From: Mesotoga infera
GTDB lineage: Bacteria > Thermotogota > Thermotogae > Petrotogales > Kosmotogaceae
Length of the DNA stretch: 64,000 bases
Direction of reading: 5' to 3'
Assembly: GCF_900157305.1 (NCBI RefSeq)
Contig: NZ_LS974202.1
Coordinates: 558,001 to 622,000, forward strand
Under the pieces are notes generated by a model. The model was not told the DNA's origin, did no database searches, and worked only from the letters and a program-made list of their open reading frames with translations. Both the position numbers and the translations under genes were made by a program. Below are positions 17,942 to 27,206 of the stretch, in pieces (position 1 is the stretch's first letter; each line of letters begins with the position of its first letter).

Positions 17942-18030
17942 TAGGAAGTGTTCAGAGAAAATTATCAAAGAAAAACTCCCCGTTACTCGTTTTATGGTAG
18001 TATTTCAGAGTAAGAAAATTGAATAAAGCA

Positions 18031-18102
18031 TCGCCTGTATAATCGCGGGAATATGGCCCGCGAGTCTCTACCGGCAACCGTAAATTGCCTGGCTACAGGT
18101 GA
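18031..18102 (+). promoter_or_regulatory. Purine (guanine-class) riboswitch aptamer, copy 1 of 2
   Basis: P1 is 18031-18038 with 18095-18102 (8 bp); P2 is CGCGGG 18044-18049 with CCCGCG 18057-18062 around the loop AATATGG; P3 begins at 18072 with L3 CCGTAAA. The J1/2 segment TATAAT, the J2/3 segment TCTCTACC and the kissing loops match the purine family. The base at the position 74 equivalent (18093) is C and that at 51 (18069) is T, which by established rules means guanine/hypoxanthine rather than adenine. One extra T sits between P3 and J3/1. A possible extended -10 (TGGTAGTAT, 17995-18003) lies just upstream. Confidence 0.93.
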
Positions 18103-18120
18103 CTTTTCGTTTTTATAACC

Positions 18121-18156
18121 GAACGAGAGTTGCCTGAGGCTCTCGTTTTTATTTTT
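18121..18156 (+). terminator. Terminator of riboswitch copy 1
   Basis: ACGAGAG (18123-18129) pairs with CTCTCGT (18140-18146), followed by TTTTT ATTTTT. It lies 20 nt after aptamer 1, the standard place for a purine riboswitch transcription terminator. The antiterminator pairing is not obvious to me. Confidence 0.88.
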
Positions 18157-18228
18157 CACCTGTATAATCGCGGGAATATGGCCCGCGAGTCTCTACCGGC
18201 AACCGTAAAATTGCCTGGCTATGGGTGA
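18156..18228 (+). promoter_or_regulatory. Purine (guanine-class) riboswitch aptamer, copy 2 of 2
   Basis: Nearly identical to copy 1 over about 60 nt from P1 through J3/1. It differs by one extra A in L3 (CCGTAAAA) and in the 3' strand of P1 (ATGGGTGAG), which pairs with more G-U wobbles at the ligand-proximal end. P2 is 18169-18174 with 18182-18187; the specificity base C is at 18219 and T at 18194. It starts only 54 nt after copy 1, directly behind the first terminator. Confidence 0.93.
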
Positions 18229-18243
18229 GTCCTGTGATTTAAC

Positions 18244-18271
18244 GACCCCGCGGGCTCGCCTTTGCGGGGTC
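18244..18271 (+). promoter_or_regulatory. GC-rich hairpin after riboswitch copy 2 (expression platform)
   Basis: GACCCCGC (18244-18251) pairs with GCGGGGTC (18264-18271) across a 12-nt loop. It ends 10 nt before the purE Shine-Dalgarno GGAGG (18282-18286). There is no U-tract, so it may be a weak or pausing terminator, or act on translation; copy 1 by contrast has a canonical terminator. Confidence 0.65.
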
Positions 18272-18292
18272 AGTCTATTGTGGAGGTTTTCA

Positions 18293-18793
18293 ATGGCTTT
18301 AGTGGCTGTGGTTATGGGGAGCAAGTCCGACCTCCCCGTGGCCCGAAGATGTACCGAAACACTCGAAAGACTTTCCGTTGGTTTTGAATTGAGAATCATG
18401 TCCGCGCATCGCACACCTTCTTTTGTAATGGAATACGCACTCTCGGTGAGGGAAAAAGGAATAGATGTGATAGTGGCCATAGCAGGGAAGGCGGCTCATC
18501 TGGCCGGTGTGATCGCCGCCTGCACATGCCTGCCGGTAATAGGCCTTCCGGTCAAATCCTCCACGCTCGATGGGTTGGATTCGCTGCTATCCACAGTTCA
18601 GATGCCTAAAGGTGTGCCGGTGGCCACGGTGGCGATCGATGGTGCCGAGAACGCAGCGCTCCTGGCTGCCAGGATACTGTCCATAAAATACCCGCAAGTG
18701 AGGGAAAGACTGGAATCGTATATTCGGCAAATGCGAGAGGAAGTCTTGAATAGCGACGAAGAGTTACGTTCGAATACAGAGGGAGGGATTTGA
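18293..18793 (+). CDS. purE: PurE, phosphoribosylaminoimidazole carboxylase / N5-CAIR mutase
   Basis: Start ATG 18293 with GGAGG upstream. 166 residues: GSKSDL, SAHRTP (catalytic His), and GLPVKSSTLDGLDSLLSTVQMP match class I PurE, and the short VAIDGAENAALL region resembles the T. maritima enzyme. However, the active-site loop usually written AGGAAHLPG reads AGKAAHLAG here. It makes CAIR, either from N5-CAIR (class I, needing PurK) or from AIR and CO2. No purK is in the operon or window. First gene behind the tandem riboswitch; 1 bp before purC. Confidence 0.95.
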   Translation: MALVAVVMGSKSDLPVARRCTETLERLSVGFELRIMSAHRTPSFVMEYALSVREKGIDVIVAIAGKAAHLAGVIAACTCLPVIGLPVKSSTLDGLDSLLSTVQMPKGVPVATVAIDGAENAALLAARILSIKYPQVRERLESYIRQMREEVLNSDEELRSNTEGGI

Positions 18794-18794
18794 G

Positions 18795-19511
18795 TTGATA
18801 GCGAGAGATCTGCTTTACGAGGGAAAGGCCAAGAAGGTCTTCCTGACAGACAGGGACGACAGATACCTTATAAGGTACAAGGATGACGCAACGGCCTTCA
18901 ATGGAGAGAAAAAGGGCAGCATCATCGGAAAGGGCGCCATTAACAACACCATGTCGGCCTACTTTTTCCAGCTACTTCAGAGCGAAGGTGTGGAGAGCCA
19001 TTTTGTGGAACAGACGAGTTCGACCGAGATGGTTGTCAGAAGGGTGGAGATAATCCCGCTCGAGGTTATAGTGAGAAACATCGCCGCCGGTTCTATGTCC
19101 GCAAGACTGGGAATTGCCGAAGGAACGCAACTCGCCAGGCCGGTCGTCGAGTTCTCCTACAAGAGGGACGATCTGGGCGATCCGCTGGTCAACGACGACC
19201 ATATCCTGGCACTAGGCCTTGCAGATGAAGAAGAACTCGCCAAGTTGAGAGAGATGGCGTTGAGGGTGAATACGATACTTAGGGAGTATTTATCGAAAGC
19301 CGGAATAACACTGGTGGATTTCAAACTGGAGTTCGGCAGGCTGGATAACGGGGAGATCCTGCTGGCCGACGAGATCAGTCCCGATACTTGCCGGTTCTGG
19401 GATAGCGAGACGGGAGAGAAGATGGATAAGGATCGTTTCAGGAGGGATCTGGGAAACATCGAGGAAGGTTACAGGAAGGCTTTGAAAAGAGTCCTCGGAG
19501 GTGGAAAATGA
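18795..19511 (+). CDS. purC: SAICAR synthetase PurC
   Basis: 238 residues from TTG 18795 with GGGAGGG upstream. The SAICAR synthetase pattern is clear: [50 protein letters not shown] and [12 protein letters not shown]. It joins CAIR and aspartate with ATP. The stop overlaps purS by 4 bp. Confidence 0.97.
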
Positions 19512-19753
19512 AGGCAACCGTCTATGTAACTCTCAAAAACGGCATCGCCGATCCACAGGGGCTGGCGGTGAGGAACGCACTCGATTCAATGGGTTTCGAC
19601 GGGGTGAAGAGAGTGCGAATAGGCAAAATAATAGAGATAGAGCTGGAAGATGGCTGTCCGGACGGTTCAAAAGTAGAAGAAATGTGTCGTTCCCTTCTGG
19701 CCAATACGGTCATGGAGGATTTTACCTTCGAAATGAGCGGCGAGAAAAGATGA
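19508..19753 (+). CDS. purS: PurS, FGAM synthase small subunit
   Basis: 81 residues ([39 protein letters not shown]), the typical small PurS that bridges PurL and PurQ in the three-part FGAM synthetase. It has 4-bp overlaps with both purC and purQ, so all three subunits are translated together. Confidence 0.97.
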
Positions 19754-20466
19754 AGGTGGCCATCGTGGTATTTCCGGGGTCAAACTGCGATCTCGATGCT
19801 TATCAAGCCATCTTAGAGAGCGGAGAAGAGGCAAGTTACGTGTGGCATATGGAAAAGAGCCTCGAAGGTTTCGACGCGGTAATACTTCCGGGAGGCTTTT
19901 CCTACGGCGACTACCTCAGATGCGGCGCGATAGCCCGTTTCTCGCCCATCATGGCGTCCGTCAGGAAGATGGCCGAAAATGGAAGGCCCGTTCTTGGTAT
20001 CTGCAACGGTTTCCAGATACTGACTGAGGCCGGTCTCCTGCCGGGAGTTTTACTCAGGAACAGGGATCTAAAATTTATCTGCAAGAACGTCTATTTGAGG
20101 GTCGAATCGACCATGAGCCCTTTCACGAAGGCATTAGAAAGCGGAAGTGTTCTCAAGATACCGATCGCTCACGGGGACGGAAACTACTTCGTCGATGGAG
20201 AAACACTCCGCAGCCTCGAAGAGAACGGCCAGGTGATCTTCCGCTACTGCTCCGCCGACGGGGAAGTCTCCCCACAGTTCAACCCCAACGGATCGATCTC
20301 GAACATTGCCGGGGTCTCCAACGCACGGGGAAATGTTCTGGGAATGATGCCACACCCGGAGAGAGTCTGCGCGGAGATCACGGGAGGCACCGACGGGCTC
20401 CTTCTCTTCAAGTCAATGATCTCTTTCCTGAAGGGGGGTATGGCCGGTGAGCTCGTCAACTCTTGA
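19750..20466 (+). CDS. purQ: PurQ, FGAM synthase glutaminase subunit
   Basis: The true start is ATG 19750, overlapping the purS stop (ATGA); 238 residues. Class I glutamine amidotransferase: FPGSNCD, nucleophile Cys in GICNGFQ, and the His-Glu pair in PHPER. It supplies ammonia from glutamine to PurL. It overlaps purL by 20 bp. Confidence 0.97.
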
Positions 20467-22651
20467 TTACTCGCCGTTGGGTCTCAGCCATTCTGAGTTC
20501 GATCTGATTTGCGAGAAGCTCGGTAGGGAGCCGAATCCACTTGAACTGGCCATGTTCGGGGTGATGTGGTCCGAGCATTGCAGTTACAAAAACTCAAAAG
20601 CTCTACTCAAAACGCTTCCGACAGGCGGCAGCTCTATCCTTCAGGGTCCAGGCGAGAACGCCGGGATTGTCGATATCGGTGAGGGGTTGGCTGTAGTGAT
20701 GAAAGTCGAAAGCCACAACCACCCTTCGGCCGTCGAGCCCTACCAGGGCGCTGCAACCGGCGTCGGTGGAATCATAAGAGATATCTTCACCATGGGGGCA
20801 AGACCGATCGCTCTGCTAAATTCGTTGAGGTTCGGCGAGCTGGATAAGGCCAGGACCAGGTATCTCTTCGAGAACGTGGTGAAGGGTATAGGAGATTACG
20901 GCAACTGTATGGGGATACCGACCGTGGCCGGAGAGATCTACTTTGACGATCACTATACGGGCAACCCCCTGGTCAACGCGATGTGCGTGGGAATAATGAG
21001 GCACGAAGAGGTCAAGTACGCCAGGGCAAAAGGAATCGGCAACCCTGTAATGCTCGTGGGGGCAACCACCGGGCGCGATGGCATGGGTGGGGCGGCCTTC
21101 GCCTCTGTCGAGCTGACCGAGCAGTCTCTGGAGAGGAAATCGGCCGTTCAGGTCGGAGATCCCTTCATGGAGAAGCTTCTTCTGGAAGCCTGTATAGAAC
21201 TCTTCAAGACCGATGCCGTGGTCGCAATTCAGGACCTCGGCGCGGCCGGGTTGACCTCTTCGTGCTGTGAGATGGCCAGCCGCGGGAAGAGCGGAATATG
21301 GATAGAACTATCTTGTATTCCGCTAAGAGAAGAGGCCATGACACCGGTAGAAATAATGCTCTCGGAGTCTCAGGAGAGGATGCTGGTCGTCGTGAAACGG
21401 GGAAGAGAGAAGGAGGTTGGGGCGATCTTCGAGAAATGGGGACTCAGCGGAACGGTGATAGGAGAGGTGACAGATGACGGACTCCTCACCGTACTGGAGA
21501 GAGGAAAAGTCGTTGCCTCGCTGCCTGCGAGACTGCTGGCCGACGACGCCCCTGTTTATACGAGAGAGTCAACCAGGCCGGCCTATCTGGAGAGTGTTGG
21601 ACGTTTCGATCTACTCGAAAGTGAAGATATGAATATTGAGGAGACGCTGATCGCGCTCCTGCAAAGACCGACGATAGCCGGTAAAGAATGGGTTTACAGT
21701 CAGTACGACCATATGGTGAGGACAAGTACGGTGACGGGGCCGGGAAGCGATGCGGCCGTAATACGCATTAGGGGTACAAACAGAGCGATAGCCCTCACGA
21801 TAGATGGTAACGGTTCTTACTGTTATCTCGATCCATTCATGGGGGCTGCGATAGCAGTCGCTGAAGCCGCACGAAACCTGGTCTGTTCGGGTGCCAGGCC
21901 GCTTGCGATAACCGACGGTCTGAACTTCGGAAACCCTGAAAAGAGAGAGATCTACTGGCAGTTCAAAGAGACGATCGCCGGTCTGACCGCTGCATGCGAT
22001 GTTCTGGAGACACCGGTAATAAGCGGAAACGTTTCCTTCTACAACGAAACCGAAACCGGGGCTATATTCCCCACTCCCATCGTTGGAATGGTGGGTGTGA
22101 TAGAGGACATTTCGAAGGTGACGGGGAGCTTTTTTATCAACGAGGGCGACGTGATACTCCTCCTCGGCGAGAATACCAATGAACTGGGCGGTAGCGAATA
22201 TCTCAGAATGCTCACAGGTAGAACGATCGGAGAGTGTCCCACGATAGATCTCGAAAGGGAGAAGAGGGTTCAAAGGCTCTGTCTTGAAGCCATAGGAAGA
22301 AGGCTACTCGACTCGGCCCACGATTGCAGCGAGGGTGGACTGGCCGTTGCACTTTCAGAATGCTGTTTTGGAAAAGGTCTCGGGGCGAAAATCGAACTTA
22401 ACGATACATTGCCGATCGATGCGCTTCTTTTCGGGGAGGCCCAGTCGAGGATCGTGGTCTCACTGAAGGAGTCGAAGCTCGACTCTCTCCTCGAGCTGGC
22501 CGGGGAGTTCGGCGTACCCGCTCGGATCCTGGGCAGGGTCGGCAGTAATGAGCTAAAGATAGATGTGTGGGGCAGGGAGGTCTTGTCCGCGACGGTTGGA
22601 GAGCTAGAAGCTCGCTGGAGGGGGGCGATCGAATGCGCGATGAGATCATGA
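20447..22651 (+). CDS. purL: PurL, FGAM synthase ATP-binding subunit (small type)
   Basis: 734 residues, the usual length of small PurL that needs PurS and PurQ. GTG start at 20447 preceded by AAGGGGGG within purQ. Motifs: [56 protein letters not shown], and the second half [20 protein letters not shown]. It converts FGAR to FGAM using ATP and ammonia. Confidence 0.97.
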
Positions 22652-24054
22652 GAGAGGAATTGAAGGAAGAATGCGGCGTTTTCGGTATAGTCTCTAGAGA
22701 GGGAAGGGCCTCCAGGACTACCTACTACGGGCTCTTCGCCCTTCAGCACAGGGGTCAGGAGAGTGCGGGAATAGCCGTATCGGAAGATGGAGACATACAT
22801 CTGCACAAAGCCATGGGTCTGGTAGGAGAAGTCTTCGACGACGCGAAGCTGGAAGAATTGAAGGGAGATCTCGCGGTCGGTCATGTCCGCTACTCCACCT
22901 CCGGGGACAGTAGTGTGATCAACGCACAGCCTCTCGTTTTCAAGACCAGGCAAGGAACGATTGCCCTCTGTCATAACGGCAACCTGGCCAACTCTTTGGC
23001 TCTGCGGGAAAGTCTGAAAGAAAAAGGGTCTATCTTCCAGACAACTGTAGATACAGAGGTAATCGCGGCGCTCCTGGCCGGCAGTTCCGACAGCGATCTG
23101 GTGATATCTATAAGGAGCGTGATGAAGGAACTGAAAGGCGCTTACGCTCTAATAATAATGACACGCGACAGGTTGATCGGTGTTAGAGATCCTCTGGGTA
23201 TAAGACCTTTGTGTATAGGAAGGAAAGAAAAAGATCTGATGCTCTCCTCTGAGAGTTGCGCCTTCGAAACTGTCGGGGGGAGCCTTCTGAGGGACGTAAT
23301 GCCCGGTGAAATCGTCGTGATCGACAGGTCGGGAATGAAGAGCTATCCTCCGGAAGAGAAGAACGAAGAGAAACTATGTATCTTCGAGTTCATATACTTC
23401 GGCAGGCCCGACAGCGTAATGAAGGGTCAGAGTCTTTACATGAGCCGAAAAAGGGCCGGAAAAATACTTTGCAGAGAGGTTCCGGCCGACGCCGACTTCG
23501 TCTGTTCCGTTCCCGATTCCGGTACGCCTTCGGCCATAGGCTTCTCCGAGGCCTCGGGAATACCTTTTCTCGAGGGGCTTGTGAAGAACAGGTACGTAGG
23601 CCGAACGTTCATAAAGCCTTCTCAAAATCAGAGAGAGATCGGAGTGGCGCTTAAGCTAAACGTACTGGAAGAAGTTGTGAGAGGGAAATCGATCGTTCTC
23701 GTTGACGATTCTATCGTCAGGGGAACTACCATAAAAAGACTTATCTCCAGACTCAGGGCATGCGGAGCGGGAAAGATACACCTGCGGATCAGCGCGCCGC
23801 CCGTCATGTGGCCCTGCTTTTTCGGAATAGACACTCCATCCAGGGACGAGCTCCTCGGGGCGCGCTTCTCTGTGGAGGAGATCGGACGACTGGTGGGAGC
23901 AGACAGCATCGGTTACCTAAGTCTGGAAGGACTAATAGAGGCCACTTCCAGTTCAGGCTTCTGCACAGGCTGCTTCTCGGGACAGTACCCGTTGGATATA
24001 GAGGGCGCCGACGGAAGGTACGCGTTGGATACCGCTCAGAAGGTGAGAACATGA
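22633..24054 (+). CDS. purF: PurF, amidophosphoribosyltransferase
   Basis: I start it at ATG 22633, 7 nt after a long GGAGGGGGG; ATG 22648 would overlap the purL stop but lacks a site. 473 residues with a short propeptide before the N-terminal nucleophile Cys (EECGVFGI), the glutaminase domain and the PRPP motif [12 protein letters not shown]. The four cysteines of the Bacillus-type [4Fe-4S] enzyme are present ([27 protein letters not shown]), so it is probably an Fe-S protein matured by propeptide removal. It catalyses the committed step of purine synthesis. Confidence 0.97.
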
Positions 24055-25076
24055 GCGATTACAGGAGTTCCGGAGTCGATATAGACGCTGGGGACAGGGC
24101 CGTCGAGCTCATGAAGCGACACGTGGAAACTACCAGGACGCCCGGGGTGTTGGGAGGCATTGGCTCCTTCGGAGGACTATTCCGTCCTGATCTTGCCGGG
24201 ATGGAAGAACCCGTGCTGGTTTCGGGAACTGACGGAGTCGGCACTAAATTGAAACTGGCCTTCGCGATGGACATTCACGATAGCGTTGGAGTAGATTGCG
24301 TGGCCATGTGTGTCAACGACATAATTTCAATGGGTGCGACACCGCTGTTCTTTCTCGATTACATAGCTATCGGAAGGCTTGAACCCGGGAAGATCGAGAA
24401 AATCGTTAGCGGTGTATGCGAAGGATGCAGACAGGCCTCCAGCGCCCTTATCGGAGGAGAGACGGCCGAGATGCCCGGGCTGTATGCCGAAAGTGAATAC
24501 GACCTGGCCGGTTTTGCAGTAGGATTGGTAGATAGACAGGAGATTATCGACGGCTCGACGATAGAGAAAGGAGACATTCTCGTAGGATGGCCCTCTTCGG
24601 GCTTTCACTCCAACGGCTTTTCACTCGTTCGGAAGATCATCTCGGATGAAAAAATAGATCTTTACGAGACCATTCCAGGCTTCTCGAGACCGATAGGTCT
24701 CGAGCTGCTCACACCCACAAGAATATACGTCTCGCTCTTGGAAAGATTGAAAAAGCTCTGTAAACCAAAAGGGATCGCACACATCACCGGCGGGGGACTT
24801 CTAGAAAATCTTCCCAGGGTAATACCCGAAGGCCTTAAGTGCGAGATACACACCGACTCCTGGGAGGTGCCGCCTGTGATCGAGTTCATTGTCGAGAGGG
24901 GTGGCGTCGAAGTCAGGGAGGCCTACAGGACCTTCAACATGGGGATCGGCCTGGTTACCGCGTTCTCTCCCGACGATGCCGATACTGTCCTGCAAGGAAT
25001 GAAGGATGAAAAACCGGTTGAGATCGGTGTGGTGGTGGCCGGGGAGGGTGGTGTTACGCTTTGCCGAAGAGGATAG
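24051..25076 (+). CDS. purM: PurM, AIR synthetase
   Basis: 341 residues from ATG 24051 (ATGA overlap with purF). AIR synthetase features: YRSSGVDIDAGDRAV, GTDGVGTKLKLA, VDCVAMCVNDI, GGETAEMPG and VGWPSSGFHSNGFSL. It closes FGAM to AIR with ATP. It overlaps purN by 16 bp. Confidence 0.97.
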   Translation: MSDYRSSGVDIDAGDRAVELMKRHVETTRTPGVLGGIGSFGGLFRPDLAGMEEPVLVSGTDGVGTKLKLAFAMDIHDSVGVDCVAMCVNDIISMGATPLFFLDYIAIGRLEPGKIEKIVSGVCEGCRQASSALIGGETAEMPGLYAESEYDLAGFAVGLVDRQEIIDGSTIEKGDILVGWPSSGFHSNGFSLVRKIISDEKIDLYETIPGFSRPIGLELLTPTRIYVSLLERLKKLCKPKGIAHITGGGLLENLPRVIPEGLKCEIHTDSWEVPPVIEFIVERGGVEVREAYRTFNMGIGLVTAFSPDDADTVLQGMKDEKPVEIGVVVAGEGGVTLCRRG

Positions 25077-25714
25077 CCGTACTTGTATCCGGTAACGGGA
25101 GCAACCTTGAAAGATTGATCGAACTCTCCGTGTCAGGTTTCATAGATGGAGAGATATCGCTGGTAATCTCGAGCAACGAAAAGGCCTTCGCGCTTGAGAG
25201 AGCGAAGAGGCACTCTATACCCTCGCACGTAGTGCATTACGGCGGTCGATCTGGTGGCGATTACAGTGATGCGATCCTCCAGATCGTCGAGGATTGTCGA
25301 ATAGACCTGATCGTCCTCGCAGGGTTTCTTAAAATTCTCTCGGGAAATATCATCGAGCGCTTCAGGAACAGGATAATAAATCTGCACCCTTCTCTGATAC
25401 CCTCCTTCTGCGGAAAGGGAATGTACGGAGAGAAAGTTCACAGGGCGGTTATCGAGAGCGGAGTCAGGATAACCGGCGCAACGGTTCACTTCGTTGACGG
25501 AGGAACCGACACCGGTCCGATAATACTGCAGGAATCCGTTCCCGTCTTTTGCGACGATTCGGTCGAAAGTCTCTCCGGAAGGGTGGCTCAGGTCGAGCAC
25601 AGATTGCTTCCGAAGGCCGTCTCTCTCTTCTGCGAGAACAGGTTGACGGTCATGGGAAAGAGAGTTTTGATAACAGGAGGTTTCTATGAAGACAGCGTTG
25701 TTGAGCGTCTCTAA
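25061..25714 (+). CDS. purN: PurN, GAR transformylase (folate-dependent)
   Basis: 217 residues from TTG 25061 with GGGGAGGG 12 nt upstream. VSGNGSNLERLI, the catalytic Asn-His-Asp set (INLHPSLIPSF, GATVHFV, DTGPII) and the formyl-THF enzyme pattern are present. It is about 15 residues longer at the C-terminus than usual, running 29 bp into purH. It forms FGAR from GAR and 10-formyl-THF. Confidence 0.95.
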   Translation: MPKRIAVLVSGNGSNLERLIELSVSGFIDGEISLVISSNEKAFALERAKRHSIPSHVVHYGGRSGGDYSDAILQIVEDCRIDLIVLAGFLKILSGNIIERFRNRIINLHPSLIPSFCGKGMYGEKVHRAVIESGVRITGATVHFVDGGTDTGPIILQESVPVFCDDSVESLSGRVAQVEHRLLPKAVSLFCENRLTVMGKRVLITGGFYEDSVVERL

Positions 25715-27206
25715 CAAAGAAGGTATAGTCGATTTTGCGAAACAACTTTCGGATAGAGGTTTTCGGATACTCTCCAGTGGAGGCACACAGAGGGAGCTGG
25801 CCGCTTCGGGGGTAGAGGTTTTGGCCGTATCTGATCTGACCGGTTTCCCAGAGTGCTTTGACGGACGGGTGAAGACTCTCCATCCGGCCGTTCATGCCGG
25901 AATACTTGCCAAGAGAGAGTTGCCTGAACACATGAAGAAGCTGGCGCAACTTGGAATCGACACGATTGATCTCGTGGCCGTTAACCTTTACCCCTTCAAG
26001 GAGGCGATCTCCGGCAACGGCGCGACGCTGGAGGAGGCGATAGAAAATATAGATATAGGAGGTCCGGCCATGCTCCGTTCGGCCGCGAAGAATTATGGCG
26101 ATGTGATCGCACTGGTCGATCCGTCAGACTACACAGGCGTCATAAAGGAGCTCGATGCCGGCGGCCCTTCCAGAGCATTCAGACTGAAGCTGGCGGCGAA
26201 GGTCTTCAGGCACGTGGCCCACTACGATTCGATAATAGCATCTCATCTAAGTGGGCTGTGCGGGGAGAGTCTGACTGAAAAGATAAACATTACGATTGAG
26301 AAGGTCCAGGACCTCAGGTACGGCGAAAATCCCCACCAGAGGGCGGCTCTTTACCGCTATCCCTTGAGTTATCCACTCGGGGGATATGTTCAGATACAGG
26401 GAAAGGAACTCTCCTTCAACAACCTCACCGACGCGGGAGCGGCAATGGAACTTTTGAGAGAGTTCACCAGCAATACGGCCCTGATAACGTTGAAGCACAC
26501 CAATCCTTGCGGTGTAGGTCTGGCCGATACGACTTTAGAAGCCTGGAAAAAGGCGTATGGTTGTGATCGGGTATCCGTGTTCGGAGGCATAGTGGCGACC
26601 AACGGAACCGTGGATAGCGAGCTGGCAGGAGAGTTGAAAAACGTCTTTCTCGAGGTAATAATGGCGCCGGTCTTCACATCACGAGCGCTTGAGATACTTT
26701 CTACCAAAAAGAACATAAGAATCCTGAAGATCGATCCCGTTTTCAAGTGCAACGAGTACGATTTCAAGTCGATACCCGGTGGAATGGTTGTTCAGGGCAG
26801 AGATAACGCAATGCTGGGAGAAGGACTGAGAATCGTAACGGCAAAAAAACCCGACGAGAGGGAAATGGAAGATATGCTCTTCGCATGGAAGGTTGTGAAA
26901 CACGTCAAATCGAACGCCATAGTTCTGGCCAGGCAAGGCCAGACCCTTGGAATAGGACCGGGTCAGACCAGCAGAATCTGGGCTCTGGAGAATGCGATAA
27001 GACAATCGAATTACGATCTGAAGGGTGCCGTTATGGCGTCGGATGGTTTCTTTCCCTTCCAGGACTGTGTTGAAGCGGCCGCGAAGGCCGGGATAGGTGC
27101 CATCATCCAGCCCGGCGGATCGATCAAAGACGAAGACTCCATAGAGGCAGCCGACAGACTCGGGCTTTCATTGGTCTTCACTGGCATGCGTCACTTCAAG
27201 CATTGA
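25686..27206 (+). CDS. purH: PurH, bifunctional AICAR transformylase / IMP cyclohydrolase
   Basis: 506 residues, ATG with AGGAGG upstream. The N-terminal cyclohydrolase domain (VSNKEGIVDFAKQL, GRVKTLHPAVHAG) and C-terminal transformylase (DLRYGENPHQRAALY, TLKHTNPCGVG, IGPGQTSR) are both complete, so the last two steps to IMP are on one chain. Confidence 0.97.
   Translation: MKTALLSVSNKEGIVDFAKQLSDRGFRILSSGGTQRELAASGVEVLAVSDLTGFPECFDGRVKTLHPAVHAGILAKRELPEHMKKLAQLGIDTIDLVAVNLYPFKEAISGNGATLEEAIENIDIGGPAMLRSAAKNYGDVIALVDPSDYTGVIKELDAGGPSRAFRLKLAAKVFRHVAHYDSIIASHLSGLCGESLTEKINITIEKVQDLRYGENPHQRAALYRYPLSYPLGGYVQIQGKELSFNNLTDAGAAMELLREFTSNTALITLKHTNPCGVGLADTTLEAWKKAYGCDRVSVFGGIVATNGTVDSELAGELKNVFLEVIMAPVFTSRALEILSTKKNIRILKIDPVFKCNEYDFKSIPGGMVVQGRDNAMLGEGLRIVTAKKPDEREMEDMLFAWKVVKHVKSNAIVLARQGQTLGIGPGQTSRIWALENAIRQSNYDLKGAVMASDGFFPFQDCVEAAAKAGIGAIIQPGGSIKDEDSIEAADRLGLSLVFTGMRHFKH

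Follow-up and report, generated by a model that had tools for sequence, protein, structure and literature searches.

Tandem guanine-type riboswitch aptamers before the pur operon of Mesotoga infera carry a coupled J3-1 insertion and G73

The pur operon of Mesotoga infera is preceded by two purine riboswitch aptamers, both of which have an extra base on the 3' side of P3 and a G in place of A73. In other bacteria the extra base and G73 occur together as one coupled change. We think it quite probable that the two aptamers are guanine OFF switches in series before the operon, with the extra U and G73 forming one structural unit and the contacts to the ligand unchanged. Plentiful guanine would then act on both riboswitches to shut the de novo purine operon. 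Judged from sequence, the aptamers would belong to a structural subtype of guanine riboswitch that has no name as yet.

Two aptamers before nine pur genes

The DNA that we analysed, called the window here, is a stretch of 64,000 nucleotides from a genome of 2.97 Mb in a single contig. Scanning it with cmscan gave two matches to the Purine covariance model RF00167, both above the gathering score of 37 bits (Table 1). No other Rfam family reached its gathering score in the 64-kb window, and no PRPP (ykkC-type) aptamer was found there at the Rfam threshold. The tandem aptamers precede nine pur genes in the order purE-C-S-Q-L-F-M-N-H. The source genome has a third RF00167 aptamer, located 5' of a frame that is GuaA-like by its translation. 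It retains A73 and lacks the insertion, so one genome contains both aptamer forms. PurE is present in three of ten genomes of the window's genus, and the same three carry aptamers of the purE-leader type. Two genomes were used for comparison of the leader, G025, whose PurE is 73% identical, and G026. Each contains part of the leader, as the contig of G025 starts within terminator 1 and that of G026 stops just past copy 2.

Table 1. Features of the pur leader and operon, in window coordinates
Feature	Position	Strand	Basis or value
Purine riboswitch aptamer copy 1	18015-18115 (core P1 to P1 18031-18102)	+	cmscan RF00167, 84.9 bits, E 7e-14
Copy 1 U22 A23 A24	18040-18042	+	sequence
Copy 1 G46, U47, C48, U51	18064, 18065, 18066, 18069	+	sequence
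Copy 1 A52 C53 C54	18070-18072	+	sequence
Copy 1 P3 GGCAA/UUGCC	18073-18077/18085-18089	+	sequence
Copy 1 L3	18078-18084	+	sequence, Rfam alignment
Copy 1 extra U, G72, G73	18090, 18091, 18092	+	sequence, Rfam alignment
Copy 1 C74	18093	+	sequence
Predicted antiterminator 1, takes P1 3' strand of copy 1	18096-18136	+	-18.3 kcal/mol in the fold of 18094-18152
Intrinsic terminator 1 with U-tract	18121-18148	+	-13.8 kcal/mol
Purine riboswitch aptamer copy 2	18140-18241 (core P1 to P1 18156-18228)	+	cmscan RF00167, 70.7 bits, E 1.9e-10
Copy 2 G46, C48, U51, C54	18189, 18191, 18194, 18197	+	sequence
Copy 2 L3 CCGUAAAA	18203-18210	+	one A longer than copy 1 L3; sequence, Rfam alignment
Copy 2 extra U, G72, G73	18216, 18217, 18218	+	sequence, Rfam alignment
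Copy 2 C74	18219	+	sequence
Predicted alternative pairing 2 (copy 2 P1 3' strand with loop side of hairpin 2)	18223-18261	+	-18.9 kcal/mol
Hairpin 2, terminator-like, poor U-tract	18244-18271	+	-17.9 kcal/mol
GGAGG, likely Shine-Dalgarno of purE	18282-18286	+	sequence; 7 bases 5' of ATG
purE, first gene of the operon	18293-18793	+	TIGR01162, 204.5 bits vs cut-off 149.6
purC, purS, purQ, purL, purF, purM, purN, purH	18795-27206	+	NCBIfam models, each above cut-off

Positions within the aptamers follow xpt numbering, checked against the Rfam alignment. Both copies lack A73 and an uninterrupted base of the P3 stem, which are consensus and not invariant in RF00167. Aligned to the Rfam model, the variant shows an unpaired U and has lost a 5' partner in P3. 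An earlier sequence-only reading of this DNA had pointed out the extra T by P3 and the G for A73 in both copies, a C for U48 in J2/3 and an L3 in copy 2 that is longer by one A, and each of these is present at the positions in Table 1. The same reading listed U48C among changes that might alter specificity. We attach no meaning to U48C and take it as ordinary variation, since position 48 was variable in every aptamer class compared (U 27, C 13 and A 3 among 43 A73 aptamers without insertion). U22, U47, U51, A52 and C74 are unchanged in both copies.

As also noted earlier, the copies differ in the wobble content of P1, with one G-U pair in copy 1 and two in copy 2. The P1 duplex energies in the nearest-neighbour model are -12.2 and -9.4 kcal/mol, a gap of about 2.8 kcal/mol that makes it plausible that the copies would switch at different ligand levels. 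In G026 the P1 letters of both copies are identical to those of the window, and the weak P1 recurs in copy 2 of G025, so this asymmetry is probably older than these species. The P1 3' strand of copy 1 (18094-18102) is also a perfect 9-base complement of the P1 5' strand of copy 2 (18156-18164). This cross-pairing (-12.6 kcal/mol) is formed in the minimum-energy fold of 18028-18165, and it may couple the copies or be a by-product of duplication.

Aptamers 5' of guaA-like genes in the window's genus (L002 1501-1600, which is G000:C1:2156112-2156211, and L035, L036 and L037) have L2 and L3 each one base under the usual length, with AAUCGG or GAUGGG in combination with CCUUAA or CCAUAA. Some of the guaA-type aptamers of this genus have G-G or G-A mismatches in P2, and the one at L037 (G028) has U at position 73.

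The inserted base and G73

We surveyed 103 Thermotogota genomes and found 83 matches to RF00167 in 54 of them; 80 matches were parsed automatically and the other three were read by eye. The extra 3' base by P3 together with G73 occurred in 20 of the 83 aptamers. Four of these are in the window's genus, four in genus g4 of the same family and 11 in family f8, all with U, and one is in G054, where the inserted base is A and accompanies G73 and U72. The coupling is not absolute, as copy 2 of G025 (with U) and the aptamer of G007 (with an inserted A) keep A73. Another four of the 83 have G73 and no extra base (G035, G036, G053, G054), and a single one, in G028, has U at position 73. In Thermotogota the U-G-G form lies 5' of purE and of xpt. 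The U-G-G aptamers before xpt in genus g4 (L038, L039) are followed by attenuators that use the P1 3' strand. Separately, one Thermotogota aptamer (L081, G009:C12:21621-21722) has A at the expected C74, the ligand-pairing base; the longest frame nearby downstream is just 82 codons and starts 678 bases away, so this aptamer may be decayed.

The association was counted in an even sample of 299 Bacillota-type genomes, taken from the phylum to which G103 (Moorella mulderi, from L101) belongs. All 95 matches to an A73 pattern (TCTACC-N6-CCGTAAA-N5..9-GACTA) had six bases on the 3' side and thus no insertion (0/95), whereas 25 of 30 matches to the G73 version, ending in GGCTA, had one (18 one base, seven two bases, five none); both patterns fix the letters of L3 and a six-base 5' arm, and the window's own five-base arm type is outside their coverage. 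A T preceded GG in 18/18 of the one-base cases. Fisher's test gave p 1e-21, and p 9e-10 when identical sequences were counted once (10/14 G73 vs 0/63 A73), although neither value is strict because the sequences are related. Thus, the extra base and G73, which had been described as two changes, are indeed both there, but they are not separate: they are one coupled change.

We ran cmscan on 20 loci, comprising 19 of 20 G73-pattern loci and L033, and RF00167 was found in 20/20. The clostridial U-G-G aptamers lie before purE and a purine-permease-like gene, and several are in leaders resembling guanine-PRPP tandems. RF00442 matched directly 3' of the RF00167 aptamer at L248 and L237, and the PRPP-type motif AAGTGYACCT lay downstream of the aptamer in 8 of 18 inspected loci. 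At L236, from the Clostridiales MAG K_7_2_bin.50 (found as L157), the U-G-G aptamer precedes a frame that, by translation, resembles a xanthine dehydrogenase subunit. This is an unusual neighbour for a guanine riboswitch and is the exception among the contexts inspected.

Conservation was counted over the collected loci after a filter that required P1 and P2 pairing and discarded 27 G73-insertion, 19 G73-no-insertion, 16 G73 shorter-3'-arm and two A73 aptamers. Among the 53 remaining aptamers with G73 and an insertion, G46 and U47 were present in 53/53, U22 in 53, A23 in 52 and A24 in 52. Because the search pattern itself fixes U51, A52, C53, C54, C74 and U75, their invariance among the matches carries no information; the window copies do contain them. 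A24U was found in 19/26 aptamers with G73 and no insertion, compared to 3/43 with A73 and no insertion and 1/53 with G73 and an insertion, in a sample that was chosen for G73 and in which class sizes are not frequencies. By these alignments, G73 accompanied by an inserted base or often by A24U appears to follow a specific covariation rule. Part of the covariation between positions 24 and 73 may already be described by Stoddard 2013, on pocket-adjacent positions. Among the open-access papers that our literature searches returned, titles and opening abstracts contained no description of this coupling or of a Mesotoga purine riboswitch, which is weak evidence.

Published work offers a structural frame for this change. 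The adenine aptamer keeps A24 between A73 and the pair C54-G72 (PMC9588036), and A73 forms a triple with the A52-U22 pair (PMC6817744); the A23-G46-C53 triple needs C53 (PMC3764141). In our model the inserted base would interrupt the stacking of pair 54-72 on pair 55-71, and a G at position 73 would restore the junction by pairing with C53 or by restacking on A24. Nearest-neighbour calculations with the inserted U gave pair 54-72 a probability of 0.09 with A73, and of 0.90 plus a 53-73 pair with G73; this restored pair would explain the coupling. But the conserved A23-G46-C53 triple uses C53 as well, and a 53-73 pair would be in competition with it. As A23 and G46 remain conserved, G73 would either pair with C53 in the free state alone or have another role. 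Position 73 and the base of the P3 stem adjoin the guanine pocket, and their joint change would be a covariation rule for a heavily studied aptamer that bears on the origin of selectivity against hypoxanthine and xanthine.

Predicted expression platforms

A platform is evident for copy 1; the candidate platform of copy 2 is a hairpin with an alternative pairing, and its U-tract is poor. In copy 1 a terminator with a U-tract opposes an antiterminator that takes up the P1 3' strand, and both are kept in G026 with some letters changed. This platform reads as a transcription OFF switch. Terminator 1 is kept in G025 as well. Bound guanine would stabilise P1 of copy 1 and free the terminator arm, and transcription would end near 18148. 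When guanine is absent, the P1 3' strand would go into the antiterminator. We rejected a pairing between the loop of terminator 1 and the P3 5' strand because neither G025 nor G026 keeps it.

Transcripts that read through would reach copy 2, where the weaker P1 would compete with the pairing that breaks hairpin 2. G025 keeps hairpin 2 with a compensatory G-C to A-U change, and it keeps the alternative pairing in other letters (GGUGAGU/ACUCACC). Copy 2 may cause weak termination or affect translation, both being possible because the U-tract of hairpin 2 is poor. Sequestration of the purE Shine-Dalgarno sequence by J2/3 of copy 2 (GUGGAG/CUCUAC, 6 bp) was rejected, as this pairing is not kept in G025.

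We also considered that copy 2 is a decaying duplicate that folds but does not switch, leaving control to copy 1 alone. Its lower score (70.7 vs 84.9 bits), the poor U-tract after hairpin 2 and an L3 that is altered in copy 2 of the window and, differently, in copy 2 of G026 (CCGCAAA) are consistent with decay. By contrast, three genomes have a copy 2 with unaltered core letters, and hairpin 2 and the alternative pairing survive the letter changes in G025, where PurE is 73% identical, making decay distinctly unlikely. We therefore favor two switches in series.

A different arrangement is present in family f8. In 11/11 genomes (G055-G065; L030, L065, L067, L069, L072-L076, L078, L079) the aptamer is followed by GGUAGAGAC, nine bases that perfectly complement J2/3 (GUCUCUACC), a strand of the ligand pocket. 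In the four f8 loci inspected GGUAGAGAC is the 5' arm of a terminator, with its AGAC in or near the loop. These sequences suggest an f8 antiterminator that would pair J2/3 itself and not the P1 strand. The f8 complement is confined to one clade, possibly with a single origin, and L255 carries a similar arm. An antiterminator directed at J2/3 was rejected for the window, where the copies have at most four complementary bases downstream.

Relation to guanine-II, xanthine-II and tandem riboswitches

The ligand contacts named for purine riboswitches are U22, U47, U51 and C74 (PMC3764141, PMC9295807). Because these are unchanged in the window, guanine is the expected ligand. The sequence-only reading had raised a changed specificity, and compounds such as guanosine, xanthine or 2'-deoxyguanosine might be suspected as a new main ligand, since the altered bases adjoin the pocket and xanthine-II aptamers also have J3-1 insertions (PMC9295807). 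However, xanthine-II has U51G with a two-base J2-3 insertion, and 2'-dG-III has changes in all three joining regions (PMC9295807). The U-G-G form sits mostly before genes of the guanine-riboswitch type in the contexts inspected, with L236 the one exception. We rejected a new ligand arising from the extra base and G73, and regard it as extremely improbable: a J3-1 insertion by itself is no ground for reading one.

In J3-1 the window aptamers resemble guanine-II, which keeps U51, has one extra base in J2-3 and shares most other variations of xanthine-II (PMC9295807). A tested guanine-II RNA bound guanine at 8.3 nM or better, and in Paenibacillus the class is an ON switch before PRT genes (PMC9295807). 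We searched four Paenibacillus genomes, including that of DMB5, whose allB RNA was tested as xanthine-II (PMC9295807); the class and gene labels that follow are our reading of sequences and translations. At L282 and L278 a U51G aptamer precedes an allantoinase-like frame, and at L277 a Rieske-like one. The U51 aptamers precede PRT-like frames (L283, L286, L279), except for one (L276) that precedes a Rieske-like frame. The layouts are CUAC-C-GGCAA..UUGCC-U-GG-CUA in the window, CUAC-A-GGCAA..UUGCC-CCA-GG-CUA in guanine-II-like and CGAC-CA-GGCGA..UUGCC-CCA-GG-CUA in xanthine-II-like aptamers, all three having an insertion and then GG before C74. The number of letters between U51 and GGCAA is the same in window and guanine-II-like aptamers; in the window the base next to GGCAA is C54, able to pair with G72.

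These likenesses led us to weigh a guanine-II-like pocket, in which guanine is the ligand but a rearranged junction has lost or weakened C54-G72 and the crossing pair G46-C53, and hypoxanthine and xanthine are rejected much more than by guanine-I. The shared GGCAA..UUGCC, J3-1 insertion and GG before C74 fit such a pocket. Guanine-II is reported to be far stricter against hypoxanthine and xanthine than guanine-I (PMC9295807), and its structures are described as lacking the crossing linker pairs seen in other ligand-bound ones (PMC13374515). Against this, J2-3 of the window keeps C53 C54 where guanine-II-like RNAs have CA, and A23, A24 and G46 are conserved in the U-G-G group. In addition, guanine-II is described as an ON switch at PRT genes, whereas the window aptamers precede purE and their platforms look like OFF switches. 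We consider a guanine-II-like pocket unlikely and prefer two guanine OFF switches with unchanged contacts. A related proposal, to which we give low credence, is that the J3-1 insertion with G73 marks a guanine-aptamer subtype, widespread in Thermotogota and clostridia, with a pocket between guanine-I and guanine-II. If true, this subtype would discriminate more sharply against hypoxanthine and xanthine, and it would reveal the step that gave rise to guanine-II and xanthine-II; the U51-keeping aptamer at L099 may be compared.

The aptamers at L099, L253, L254 and similar clostridial loci have two more bases 3' of P3 before GG, for example CC-A-GGUGU..ACACC-ACA-GG. The layout at L099, CUAC-CA-GGUGU..ACACC-ACA-GG-CUA, is of the xanthine-II type with U51 kept, and at L253 and L254 the aptamer precedes frames that read as purine-permease-like in translation.

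The window aptamers share with guanine-I (RF00167, xpt-type) the three-stem fold, the L2-L3 letters, U22, U47, U51 and C74, the pur context and, for copy 1, an attenuator using the P1 3' strand. They differ by the unpaired U by P3, G73 and, in copy 2, the longer L3. They have in common with guanine-II U51, a J3-1 insertion, GG before C74 and the P3 GGCAA/UUGCC found in L283 and L286. Unlike guanine-II-like RNAs, however, they have a J3-1 insertion of one base (U) and not three (CCA), C54 in place of A, and a purE operon with a predicted OFF platform rather than a PRT gene with an ON switch. Xanthine-II is different in that the window keeps U51 and lacks the two-base J2-3 insertion. The 2'-dG riboswitches have altered pocket letters in the joining regions, whereas U22, U47, U51, A52 and C74 are unchanged in the window, a comparison made with the changes published for 2'-dG-III. 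Known tandem guanine riboswitches comprise seven doublets and one triplet (PMC9481103); like these, the window leader has two guanine-type aptamers, each followed by its own hairpin, but copy 2 may act by another mechanism. The tandem guanine-PRPP riboswitch (PMC5912903) likewise places a guanine-type aptamer, in some clostridial cases of the U-G-G form, in a purine leader, and differs from the window by its PRPP aptamer.
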